A stretch of DNA of 64,000 nucleotides from Devosia sp. YR412 (lineage in GTDB: Bacteria; Pseudomonadota; Alphaproteobacteria; Rhizobiales; Devosiaceae): NCBI RefSeq assembly GCF_900110945.1, contig NZ_FOFL01000002.1, positions 806,001-870,000 of the forward strand, read 5' to 3'. This document shows, piece after piece, positions 41,959-45,575 of this stretch. The notes beneath the pieces are model-generated. The model was not told the origin of the DNA, did not search any database, and worked only from the letters and a program-made list of their open reading frames with translations. Both the position numbers and the translations under genes were made by a program. The stretch's first letter is position 1. Each line of letters starts with the position of its first letter.

Positions 41959-42455
41959 GGCGTGTCTTCGCGGAAGATCACATGCTCCGGCACGCCCGAC
42001 AGCTGGCGCAGCTTTTCGGGCAACCACGCCGGCAGCAGCCGCGCCGCGCTCAGCGCATCGCCCTCAAGATTCAGCCAGGAGAACTGCAGCAGATGGCCCT
42101 CATCCTCGCGCACGAGAAAAGGCTGCGGACCACCGGGGCGCACATCGTCGGGCAGCTCGATCGCATAAATGAAACCCAGCTCGTGGAAGCGCTCGCCTTC
42201 GCGGCCATAAAAGCTTTCCGAGGTGAACAGCAGCGTGTCGATCTCGGCCACCATCACCATTTCCTCGGCGATCTCGCGCACAAGCGACACATCGCTGGCC
42301 TCGCCCATTTCGACGCGCCCGCCCGGCAGCATGCAATAGTCGTCGCCATCCTCTCGGCAGACCAGCACATGGCCATCGCGAATGGCGGCGCCGGCCACGC
42401 GATAATTGAACCGCGTGCCGCCGACCGGAAAGCTTAGCATCACCCGTTCAGTCAC
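41955..42455 (-). CDS. NUDIX hydrolase between ruvB and ybgC
   Basis: The 166-residue protein has a complete NUDIX box, [20 protein letters not shown] then EM, and a beta-rich fold on both sides. The substrate is unknown. The start is uncertain: GTG 42455 has GGAG eight bases upstream and overlaps the ruvB end by eight bases; ATG 42440 is the alternative. It overlaps the metallophosphoesterase gene as GTGA, so it lies in a chain of translationally coupled genes. Confidence 0.87.
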
Positions 42456-43488
42456 TTTCCGGCTCCTCGAACAGGCTGGCTTGCAGGCCGACAAAGCCCT
42501 GCGGCACGATCCGGCCGAGATGCTGGAACGCCCCGCCGGTCAGCATGCGGCCGCGCGGCGTGCGCTGGATGAAGCCCTGCTGGATCAGATAGGGCTCGAC
42601 GATTTCCTCGATCGCATCGCGCGGCTCGGACAGCGCCGCGGCAATGGTTTCGATGCCCACCGGCCCGCCATTGTAGAAATCGGCAATCGTCGTCAGATAG
42701 CGCCGGTCGAGCTGGTCGAGCCCGCGCGCATCGACATCGAGCCGCAGCAGCGCCTTGTCGGCAATCGCCCGGGTGATTTCGCCCGAACCATCGACAAGCG
42801 CAAAATCGGTCACCCGGCGCAAAAGCCGCCCGGCAATACGCGGCGTGCCCCGCGAGCGCCGGGCAATTTCCATCGCCCCATCGGGCGCCATCGGCATGCC
42901 GAGCAATCGTGCACCGCGCTGCACGATGAGCACCAGTTCTTCAGGCGTATAGAAATTGAGCCGCACAGGAATGCCGAAGCGGTCGCGCAGAGGCGTCGTC
43001 AGCAGGCCCGCCCGCGTCGTCGCCCCGACCAGCGTAAACCGCGCCAGATCGATCCGCACCGAGCGCGCGGCAGGACCTTCGCCGATGATCAGGTCGAGTT
43101 GGAAATCCTCCATCGCCGGATAGAGCACTTCCTCGATCGCCGGATTGAGCCGGTGGATCTCGTCGATGAACAGCACGTCGCGATCTTCGAGATTGGTCAG
43201 CAGCGCCGCGAGATCACCCGCCTTGGCGATCACCGGGCCGGAGGTGGCGCGAAATCCGACACCCAGCTCCTTGGAGATGATCTGCGCCAGCGTGGTCTTG
43301 CCCAGGCCCGGCGGGCCGACGAACAGCACATGGTCCAGCGCGGCCCCACGCTGCTTGGCTGCCTGGATGAAGACCTCCAGATTGGCTCGCGCCGCGGCCT
43401 GGCCGACAAATTCGGAAAAGCCGGACGGGCGCAGCGCCACATCCAGCGGCTCATCGCGTCCGGCGGCAGGAGAAGTCAGGTCGGTCAC
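42448..43488 (-). CDS. ruvB: Holliday-junction branch-migration ATPase RuvB
   Basis: The 346-residue AAA+ motor has Walker A GPPGLGKT, Walker [11 protein letters not shown], the sensor region [13 protein letters not shown] and the C-terminal winged helix (RTPRGRMLT). With RuvA it drives branch migration of Holliday junctions. Its GTG (43488) overlaps the VapC stop (TGA) as GTGA. RuvA is not next to it; the toxin-antitoxin genes lie between. Confidence 0.97.
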
Positions 43489-43883
43489 GCGAGCAATTCC
43501 ATTCCGGGTATGCGTTTAGCGGCGTCTTTGTCAAACGTGACGGTGGTAGTGCAGCCGCTTCTTCGGTTGATTTCCGCGATCAACAGATCGGCCAGATCGA
43601 CCTTGCTATTGGCGTAATGCGGCAGCGCCTCCCTCACCACGTCATGCGCCTCGACAACGATATCCGCTGTATCCAGCATACGTTCAAGCACAAGGCTAAT
43701 GCGATCTCGACCATACTTGTAAGCCTGGCCCAGAGCCCAAACCAGTTCGACAATCACCACCAGCGAAATATGCGCAGGGTCACCTGTCGAACGATTGGCG
43801 AAGAATTCTGTGACAAGGGCGTTTTGATTCGGATCGTCTTGTATGAACAGTCGGAGCAGAACGTTGGTATCAACGCCGATCAT
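43485..43883 (-). CDS. VapC-like PIN-domain toxin
   Basis: The 132-residue protein has the PIN catalytic acids in the expected places: D5 in [13 protein letters not shown]46 in [10 protein letters not shown]99 in [11 protein letters not shown] and D118 in TVTFDKDA. Such toxins cut tRNA or rRNA when released from the antitoxin. Base composition is lower than in ruvB: in one 60-base line (43801) 27 bases are G or C, against 42 in a ruvB line (43381). Its stop overlaps the ruvB start, and its ATG overlaps the antitoxin stop. Confidence 0.9.
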
Positions 43884-44161
43884 CTTTTGAGCGACCGCAT
43901 CACACTCCGTGCCGCTGCCTCTGCTATGCCGGCGTTGATCTCTTCTATGCTGACAGGACCAACGGGAGACGGCGCCAGAATTCCGGCCAGATCAACCGCC
44001 CGCAAGGTCCGCGGTTTCACAATGGCCTTGCCGTCTTCGATGATCCACTCAACCTGCGCGCCTTCACTCAGGCCGAGAACGTCCCGCACTTCCTTGGGCA
44101 CAGTGGTCTGACCTTTACTGGTCATGGTCCCAAGCAATCTCTTCCTGATTGAAATAGACAT
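43880..44161 (-). CDS. AbrB/MazE-type antitoxin (VapB-like)
   Basis: The 93-residue protein has a swapped-hairpin AbrB domain at residues about 10-50 (TMTSKGQTTVPKEVRDVLGL, then VEWIIEDGKAIVKPR), and a helical tail that would hold the toxin (SIEEINAGIAEAAARSV). It should bind both VapC and its own promoter. The ATG at 44161 lies next to the 44169-44207 inverted repeat. The gene ends in ATGA over the toxin start. Confidence 0.88.
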   Translation of the reverse strand: MSISIRKRLLGTMTSKGQTTVPKEVRDVLGLSEGAQVEWIIEDGKAIVKPRTLRAVDLAGILAPSPVGPVSIEEINAGIAEAAARSVMRSLKR

Positions 44162-44168
44162 TACCACA

Positions 44169-44207
44169 CCTCAATTCCTTACCTTCTAGAATAGTAAGGA
44201 ATTGAGG
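44169..44207 (-). repeat. Perfect inverted repeat on the antitoxin leader
   Basis: CCTCAATTCCTTAC (44169-44182) is exactly complementary to GTAAGGAATTGAGG (44194-44207) with an 11-base loop. It ends eight bases before the antitoxin ATG, and the GAGG in the arm nearest the gene may be its ribosome site. It could be the antitoxin operator, an RNA stem that hides the ribosome site, or both. It is not a terminator, as there is no T-run. Confidence 0.88.
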
Positions 44208-44222
44208 CAATTGCAAGGAGCC

Positions 44223-44840
44223 TTACTGGCTCAGCTCCCGCAAGCCCAGCCGGATCAGCTTCTCGGTTGGCACGCTGTCACCCTCGCGCGCCACGATCCG
44301 CGACAGCGCCGCCGAAGCCTGCGCGCTGGAATAGCCGAGATTGGTGAGTGCCGAGACGGCATCGGTGATGGCCGAGGGTGCGACACCCTCACCCAGCGCC
44401 GCCTGAAGGCCGAGCGTACCCGCGTCGATCCCCGGCCCGGCCGGGACCTTGCCCTTGAGTTCGGTCACCAGACGCACGGCCAGTTTCGGCCCAACGCCAT
44501 TGGCACGGCCGATCATTGCCTTGTCCTGCAGCGCGATGGCACTGGAGAGTTCGGCCGGCGACAGCACCGAAAGAATGGCCAGCGCCACGCGGGCGCCGAC
44601 GCCCTGCACGGTCATCAACAGATTAAACCAAGCCTTTTCACCCTCGCTGGAAAAACCATAGAGGCGGATCATGTCTTCGCGCACGATGGTTTCGATGAAC
44701 ACCACGGCCGCCTCGCCAACGCGTGGCAGGGCCTGCAATGTGCGCGACGAGGCAAAGGCCTCGTAGCAGACGCCGCCGCAGTCGATCAGCACGTAGTCAT
44801 CACCAAAGCTGTCCACCAGCCCCTTGAGCTTGCCGATCAT
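44223..44840 (-). CDS. ruvA: Holliday-junction recognition protein RuvA
   Basis: The 205-residue protein has an OB-fold N-terminal domain ([20 protein letters not shown]), two helix-hairpin-helix motifs ([16 protein letters not shown] and [18 protein letters not shown]), and a flexible link to a C-terminal domain III that contacts RuvB. It binds four-way junctions as a tetramer. It overlaps ruvC by four bases (ATGA). The antitoxin gene, not ruvB, follows. Confidence 0.97.
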
Positions 44841-45343
44841 GCGAGTGCTTTCAATCTCTGGTTGGCGACGCGGTGATGCGCGTGGCAGATGGCGATGGCC
44901 AAGGCATCGGCCGCATCGGCGCCCTTGAATTCGGCCAGCGGCATCAGCGTCTTTACCATTAGCGCCACCTGCCCTTTTTCGGCGTGGCCAGAACCGACCA
45001 CCGACTTCTTGACCAGATTGGCGGCATATTCCGCGACCGGCAGGCCGCGCGCCGCCGGCGTCAGCAGCGCCACGCCGCGAGCCTGGCCCAGGATCAGCGC
45101 CGAACGCATGCCGGCATTGACGAAGGTTTCTTCCACGGCAGCCTCATGCGGGGCAAAACGATCGAGCACTTCTCCAAGCCCTGTGAACAAGATAGCCAGA
45201 CGCTCGGCCAGCGATCCATCGGTCGGCGGCGTGAGGGTGCCAGCGCCGATAAAGGTCAGCCGATTGCCCTGGGTTTCGATAATGCCCCAACCGCAGCGGC
45301 GCAGGCCCGGATCGATGCCAATGATTCGCGTTACAAGGCTCAT
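44837..45343 (-). CDS. ruvC: Holliday-junction resolvase RuvC
   Basis: The 168-residue nuclease has the four acidic residues of RuvC: D in [15 protein letters not shown] in AAVEETFV, and two Asp in the C-terminal [16 protein letters not shown]. It resolves junctions handed over by RuvAB. The ATG at 45343 has AAGGATGGG upstream; a longer open frame upstream is not supported. It is first in the local ruv operon. Confidence 0.97.
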
Positions 45344-45575
45344 GCGCCCATCCTTATTCAAGCGGATGCAGCCTACCAAGCGCCAAGTGAACAAATAGGC
45401 AACAAGCCCGATGGATAAACGAGGATGCATAAATTTGTCACCCAGCGCGCAACACCATCTTTAAGTGGTTACCCCTAGCGTCTCCGGCGGGAATGCAGGA
45501 GCGGTAAATGACTGAGCGACGCAAGGATTCGGCCGGGCAAAACCGGCACGGCATGGCTTGCGCGAGCATCACCCG

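Follow-up and report, generated by a model that had tools for sequence, protein, structure and literature searches.

A VapBC toxin-antitoxin pair recurs inside the ruvCAB operon of Devosia and probably ties RuvB output to the pair

A VapBC pair separates ruvA from ruvB

In the window, a 64,000-nt stretch of a Devosia genome of 3.83 Mb, a toxin-antitoxin pair lies inside the ruvCAB operon, the genes running ruvC-ruvA-vapB-vapC-ruvB on the minus strand (Table 1). We lean, if not strongly, toward reading this pair as a VapBC cassette that occupies a fixed ruvA-ruvB address and is physically part of ruvB expression, such that the amount of RuvB made probably depends on it. The gene order, the overlaps, the conservation of a putative ribosome site and operator, and the turnover of the pair can be read from the DNA directly. 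The coupling of ruvB to the toxin is well supported by comparison of genomes, and regulation of RuvB by the pair is plausible on the same grounds.

An earlier note on this DNA had reported the gene order together with ATGA and GTGA overlaps, and both are confirmed on the minus strand: antitoxin and toxin share ATGA, and toxin and ruvB share GTGA. The genes ruvC and ruvA share ATGA as well. The observation is correct and more general than was supposed. Its wording that the pair is translationally fused to ruvB went too far, as the toxin and ruvB genes overlap by 4 nt and no single fusion protein results. Beyond that description, the toxin gene ends in codons that resemble a ribosome site for ruvB, ahead of the pair stands a promoter-like element that overlaps an inverted repeat (CCTTAC/GTAAGG), and comparison among genomes indicates that the pair behaves as a cassette, exchanged between species and replaced by a divergent toxin.

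Table 1. Genes and candidate regulatory elements at the ruv locus of the window
Feature	Position	Strand	Evidence or remark
LexA-like GTTG-N7-GTTC, GTTGCCTATTTGTTC	45389..45403	-	~60 nt before ruvC
ruvC	44837..45343	-	PF02075, E 7.6e-46
ruvA	44223..44840	-	RuvA_N, HHH_5, RuvA_C domains
Putative -35, CTTGCA	44212..44217	-	CTTG-N19-CTA pattern
Inverted repeat CCTCAATTCCTTAC/GTAAGGAATTGAGG	44169..44207	-	Putative VapB operator overlapping -10
Putative -10, CTATTC	44189..44194	-	17 nt from -35
vapB-like antitoxin, 93 aa, AbrB/MazE type	43880..44161	-	PF04014, E 5.4e-11; TIGR01439
vapC-like PIN toxin, 132 aa	43485..43883	-	PF01850, E 3.2e-12
Putative Shine-Dalgarno of ruvB, GGAATGGAA	43497..43505	-	Codons Gly-Met-Glu in toxin 3' end
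ruvB	42448..43488	-	RuvB_N, E 3e-78; GTG start within toxin stop overlap

The assignment to VapBC made in the earlier note is borne out by domain content, a PIN toxin with an AbrB/MazE-type antitoxin, and by the small DNA-binding antitoxin gene that lies directly upstream of the toxin gene and overlaps it. In an alignment of 18 toxins resident at the junction, the acidic PIN residues D5, E46, D99 and D118 are invariant. Domain content, antitoxin-toxin order, overlap, acidic residues and an inverted repeat before the antitoxin are common to this pair and to type II VapBC systems generally; what sets the Devosia pair apart is its place inside ruvCAB, a toxin 3' end that apparently doubles as the ruvB ribosome site, and a toxin C-terminus unlike that of the 41 free relatives compared. 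The host genome holds one match to the resident toxin at E<=0.001 and four PIN-domain matches altogether, three of them above the Pfam cut-off. A sequence search of the PDB gave three matches, the best to 8wmm (1.6e-6) and the other two to engineered or de novo proteins; PHROGs and PADLOC searches yielded nothing informative.

The pair has a G+C content of 54.8%, against 66.2% for ruvB and 64.7% for ruvA (ruv genes, 63-66%). For the first 60 nt, the count of 42 G+C given earlier for ruvB is right, whereas that for the toxin is 28 rather than 27.

Distribution at the ruvA-ruvB junction

We searched 75 genomes of the genus and obtained 74 junctions, one genome (G062) being without a full RuvB match. 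A VapBC pair occupies the junction in 28 of the 75; ruvA and ruvB abut in another 28, a count that includes G053, with 28 nt and only fragmentary matches, and G004, in which the RuvB match is broken. Four were called as deletion scars, 11 have other genes, two have short gaps (97 and 109 nt) with no recognised gene, and two were left uncalled. The pairs fall into 20 of class A, with inserts of 732-741 nt where measured, and eight of class B (703-712 nt); one genome counted as bearing a pair, G055, has a contig that ends before ruvA. Two clear scars encode the last 24-29 toxin residues, one with a local score of 82 (highest shuffle, 36) and the other with 63 (highest shuffle, 45), and two borderline scars score 37 against maxima of 34 and 37.

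This comparison of junctions in relatives, proposed in the earlier note, favors acquisition of the pair but not an arrangement peculiar to this genome. That idea we reject because 28 of the 75 genomes searched in the genus, this one included, carry the pair, and a second family has it besides. Equally, an ancestral and universal feature is rejected on account of the 28 genomes in which ruvA abuts ruvB.

Among the 11 junctions with other cargo, five hold a gene for a secreted-looking protein of ~102 aa (DQNEATAVAIWFVEADG...; loci L018, L023, L032, L037 and L077), of which the L018 copy has no Pfam match, and six hold other genes. Membrane proteins and a 111-114-aa protein were seen in ruv order in L042, L057 and L079 and in L047, L052 and L054, one of each being without a Pfam match; L042 additionally contains a short ORF with an AbrB-like stretch.

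Beyond the genus, toxin profile A1 gave 55 listed matches in 297 genomes of the order, and 11 of the 50 examined lie at the junction, in two families. A second family, f23, has a toxin match at E<=1e-20 in 107 of 297 genomes, and the pair was verified at ruvA-ruvB in 102 of the 297, representing 52 genera; seven other matched loci examined lie elsewhere. We take f23 to be probably Rhizobiaceae because Hoeflea sp. BAL378 (L187) shows the same arrangement; the 102 f23 genomes together with this strain form the set of 103 loci used below (the f23 set). Extension through the whole class was rejected: among 289 genomes of the class, 19 had matches outside the order, none with a ruvA or ruvB match within up to 1.5 kb on each side. 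Separately, many Roseibium, Stappia and Labrenzia loci (among L170-L186) have 237-240 nt between ruvA and ruvB.

The toxin 3' end looks like a ribosome site for ruvB

In the window, the toxin gene ends in GGAATGGAA...GTGA. A toxin stop codon overlapping a start codon in the RuvB frame is found in all 28 Devosia residents and in 91 of the 103 residents of the f23 set, for which the ruvB start was placed by frame and position only and toxin ends were located by BLAST, for the overlap and ATGGA counts alike. The earlier proposal of a translational link between toxin and ruvB thus gains comparative support from the stop/start overlaps and from the apparent ribosome site within the toxin gene.

The core of that site, ATGGA at position -15 from the toxin stop, is present in 20/20 class A and 93/103 f23-set genes and in 0/8 class B genes and 0/41 free relatives. 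That is, 113 of 123 residents of class A and the f23 set have it, versus none of the 41 free toxins (Fisher 2e-29, uncorrected for relatedness). The 41 were drawn from 46 non-resident loci, after exclusion of five for which BLAST matched no resident toxin; one scan of toxin ends also left 45 rows without a recovered end. Free toxins have a similar terminal stretch without Met-Glu, and the motif M[ED]xL occurs in 0/41. In class B, GGA is reached through other codons or residues in seven of eight cases.

The glycine codon ahead of the conserved methionine is GGA in 19/20 Devosia and 30/53 f23-set toxins, and GGA accounts for only 6-7% of glycine codons in ruvA plus ruvB. As judged from these codon counts, the enrichment is a synonymous preference unneeded by the protein. 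Predicted pairing with the anti-Shine-Dalgarno sequence points the same way within Devosia, with mean duplex energies of -6.4 kcal/mol in class A and -6.6 in class B, compared with -2.7 for the free toxins. In the f23 set (overlap, Shine-Dalgarno, promoter and ruvC-ruvA counts leave out five duplicate loci), the mean over the 91 overlapping copies is -4.9 kcal/mol, and only 50 of these 91 reach -4 kcal/mol, a value also reached by 16 of the 41 free toxins.

Two observations temper the picture. First, 12 of the 103 f23-set loci lack an overlap between the last toxin and ruvB, and ATGGA persists in nine of these 12, so the signal may partly be a feature of the protein or inherited; the overlap losses together with this persistence lower our confidence in the explanation we prefer. 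Second, in genomes where ruvA and ruvB abut, ruvB mostly begins within the ruvA stop codon, with the usual 4-nt overlap and a good Shine-Dalgarno sequence (mean -6.4 kcal/mol). The toxin therefore replaces RuvA as upstream partner, and coupling of ruvB to the preceding gene does not begin with the insertion. The start codon of ruvB differs between the two states, being GTG in 25/28 Devosia genomes with the pair, and TTG in 23, GTG in four and CTG in one of the 28 abutting ones, a difference that may follow phylogeny.

Candidate control elements ahead of the pair and of ruvC

The interval covered by the earlier note, up to 44207, takes in a perfect inverted repeat that went unmentioned there. 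Its 14-nt arms (44169-44182 and 44194-44207) lie between the ruvA stop codon and the antitoxin gene; in other leaders the conserved arms look shorter. The core of this putative operator, TCCTTACTA-N-GTAAGGA, occurs in 26 of the 75 genomes of the genus, in a single copy each and always at the ruvA-ruvB junction, compared with one match in these genomes for a reversed control pattern. Across 397 genomes of the order, the pattern was found in 10 (nine at the junction, one at a free VapBC) and the reversed control in nine, such that a match to the pattern by itself says little beyond Devosia. Among the 103 f23-set leaders, only 48 have the full CCTTAC/GTAAGG repeat within its spacing, and 75 have a shorter form.

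Similar CCTTAC/GTAAGG repeats stand near the antitoxin of free relatives, for example in L198, L205, L207-L209, L214, L216, L218 and L236, which makes it likely that the repeat comes with the VapBC family or module. For one of these, a VapBC of another family of the order (L188/L198, genome G109), the operator is the same as in Devosia and no ruv gene adjoins; this pair is a possible free form of the cassette. We also considered, and rejected, the repeat as a LexA site, given its inverted CCTTAC/GTAAGG form and its occurrence near some free VapBC copies.

In read-through RNA, 44169..44207 is predicted to form a hairpin that covers the antitoxin ribosome site (fold z -3.9). As a general switch hiding that site, the hairpin was rejected, since in neither of the two relatives folded does that helix include the site.

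Overlapping the repeat is a promoter-like element of the form CTTG-N19-CTA, which we found in 23/27 Devosia leaders (1/540 in shuffles) and 40/103 f23-set leaders (7/2060 in shuffles), compared with 0/28 around the ruvA stop codon of the abutting genomes. The pattern agrees with CTTGAC-N17-CTATAT, quoted as the rhizobial sigma-70 consensus in PMC2873474. To this consensus the window's own element matches at 8/12 positions, which is not above background, and a 9/12 match lies inside the toxin gene at 43688; a scan for E. coli-type sigma-70 sites gave nothing useful.

Ahead of ruvC, the window has a LexA-like element (Table 1), and of the 60 loci whose RuvA is at least 72% identical, 58 have GTT[G/T]N7GTTC between -57 and -62 relative to ruvC. 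In alphaproteobacteria, the LexA box is GTTC-N7-GTTC; an exact GTTC/GAAC-N7 box is present upstream in only 2/79 loci, and at another place. Taken together, the LexA-like element and the apparently self-repressed pair would give ruvB two likely inputs, namely read-through upon damage and the VapBC pair.

The pair behaves as a cassette

For a view of turnover, we mapped the pair onto a ruvA plus ruvB tree of 71 genomes, L064, L080 and L081 being left out of the 74 junctions. Presence of the pair takes 15 changes on this tree and class B takes eight changes for its eight rows, though the tree itself may be disturbed by recombination at the locus. Replacement by a divergent allele is seen in the sisters G048 and G031, with ruvAB 92.3% identical and toxins only 39%. 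The reverse holds for G020 and G070, with ruvAB 91.2% and toxins 98% identical. Here, identity is 98% over the entire insert and 87-96% in the 100-nt bins on either side, the shift falling at the gene borders; other pairs of genomes are less sharp.

Synonymous divergence agrees. In five of five close pairs of genomes, toxin dS is lower than ruvB dS (0.05/0.22, 0.07/0.43, 0.23/0.31, 0.26/0.42 and 0.48/0.62), and antitoxin dS is likewise below that of ruvB, although low dS in the pair could partly reflect constraint. For both genes dN is well below dS, at about a tenth or less. The low dN/dS and the near-identical insert between diverged flanks suggest that the pair is kept functional and moves between species into the same slot. 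For acquisition, which the earlier note had suggested from the low G+C of the toxin gene, support now comes from three sides, the patchy distribution, the low G+C and the low dS.

On a broader scale, resident toxins group by host family, which led us to reject a separate new arrival from outside for every resident. The two rows nearest to the window's toxin come from genus g4 and from f23, which speaks against a purely Devosia history. A single resident clade, set against 22 free copies, had an AU p of 0.226, so one origin is neither supported nor rejected.

A model for ruvB expression and its competitors

Combining these observations, we propose that the pair would be transcribed from its own promoter, overlapped by the inverted repeat, at which the antitoxin, alone or in complex with the toxin, would act as repressor. 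Transcription from this promoter would run through vapB, vapC and ruvB, besides read-through from a LexA-type ruvC promoter. Ribosomes ending the toxin would re-initiate at ruvB by way of the toxin-encoded Shine-Dalgarno sequence and GTGA, as they would after ruvA elsewhere, and RuvB would rise upon antitoxin degradation. The cassette would pass between species into the same slot, be swapped for divergent alleles and be lost, with ruvB usually retaining a ribosome site.

What chromosomal VapBC pairs do has long been asked, and the Devosia junction offers a natural series at one site (pair, other pair, scar, none) in close species that makes an effect of such a pair on repair testable. It would present a toxin-antitoxin cassette that keeps to a single operon junction while passing from species to species, and a toxin gene with final codons apparently adapted to initiating a repair helicase.

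The strongest competitor, to which we would give a substantial chance if somewhat short of even, is that the pair is only a selfish hitch-hiker in a safe site within an expressed operon, its ribosome site and promoter reflecting accommodation with no useful regulation of RuvB. Patchy presence, replacement and scars all fit such a passenger, as does the equally good ribosome site where ruvA abuts ruvB, and toxin relatives less than 60% identical occur on 89 plasmid records. It fits less well with the promoter-like element and operator that are retained shortly before ruvB in Devosia classes A and B, or with the ruvB start codon that varies with the state of the junction, unless the latter follows phylogeny.

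A second VapBC lineage at ruvC-ruvA and related systems

In the f23 set, the other junction of the operon is often filled as well: among the 75 loci with both genes visible, 35 have at least 700 nt between ruvC and ruvA. By a crude motif test, 28 of these 35 gaps contain a PIN toxin and 14 an AbrB motif, and one such pair has Pfam matches to PIN and MazE_antitoxin. The toxins of this second lineage (e.g., L275, L298 and L325) end near ...PDTHP or ...PETHP, and several loci show an ATGA overlap with ruvA.

This second lineage lends itself to a bolder version of our model, which we regard as tentative and on the doubtful side. Both ruvCAB junctions in Hyphomicrobiales would be dedicated addresses of two VapBC lineages, each circulating in the form of exact cassettes; at ruvA-ruvB the toxin end would have evolved into the ruvB initiation region, a self-repressed toxin-antitoxin promoter would drive ruvB, and antitoxin turnover would set the RuvB:RuvA ratio. 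If so, the module would adjust the dosage of Holliday-junction processing in response to stress, and cells losing antitoxin would lose growth control and repair control together.

The single relevant paper we found on a VapBC beside ruvA describes vapB RL3987 and vapC RL3988 immediately upstream of ruvA in R. leguminosarum 3841, with common attachment and nodulation phenotypes for insertions in vapC, ruvA and ruvB (PMC11406972). Like the Devosia pair, this is a VapBC beside ruvA in the same operon neighborhood; by its stated place, and assigned by position alone, it is a ruvC-ruvA module with a different toxin lineage, rather than one of the ruvA-ruvB type. The passages on this module take up neither coupling nor an operator nor distribution. 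According to the same paper, the ntrPR VapBC of Sinorhizobium meliloti affects many transcripts (PMC11406972). This system, too, comes from the order to which Devosia belongs. To our knowledge, ntrPR is not located in ruvCAB. On the ruvA-ruvB pair itself, its distribution or a ruvB ribosome site within the toxin gene, our search, which covered few subscription papers, found no literature.

In E. coli, the operon dinB-yafN-yafO(-yafP) joins a type II toxin-antitoxin pair to a DNA-repair gene of the SOS response. The likeness to the Devosia locus lies in this operon context, whereas the E. coli toxin is of RelE type and the pair lies downstream of the repair gene. For dinB-yafN-yafO, we know of no cassette exchange and of no repair-gene ribosome site in the toxin.

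By analogy with yafN-yafO behind dinB, the pair might instead serve damage-timed growth arrest, the pair, from within an SOS operon, being produced upon damage and its toxin slowing growth during Holliday junction resolution. Such a role would suit the LexA-like element at a fixed distance before ruvC (58/60 loci), the second lineage at ruvC-ruvA, and the phenotypes shared by the R. leguminosarum insertions (PMC11406972), which polarity would also explain. We consider it unlikely, in view of the absence of the pair from the 28/75 genomes of the genus with abutting ruvA and ruvB, an own promoter that would make the pair partly independent of SOS, and a LexA-like element that departs from GTTC in its first half. 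Still less probable is a generic permissive junction in which any short gene may lodge and toxin-antitoxin pairs are merely common cargo: the 11/75 genomes with other genes at the site favor it, but 28/75 hold a VapBC, 26 of these with one operator pattern, the class A and f23 residents share a C-terminus not seen in the 41 free relatives, and the pair is present there in 102/297 f23 genomes.

Finally, two ruvA-ruvB junctions, L312 (G590) and L324 (G517), carry two tandem toxin matches, which in L312 correspond to two antitoxin-toxin modules.
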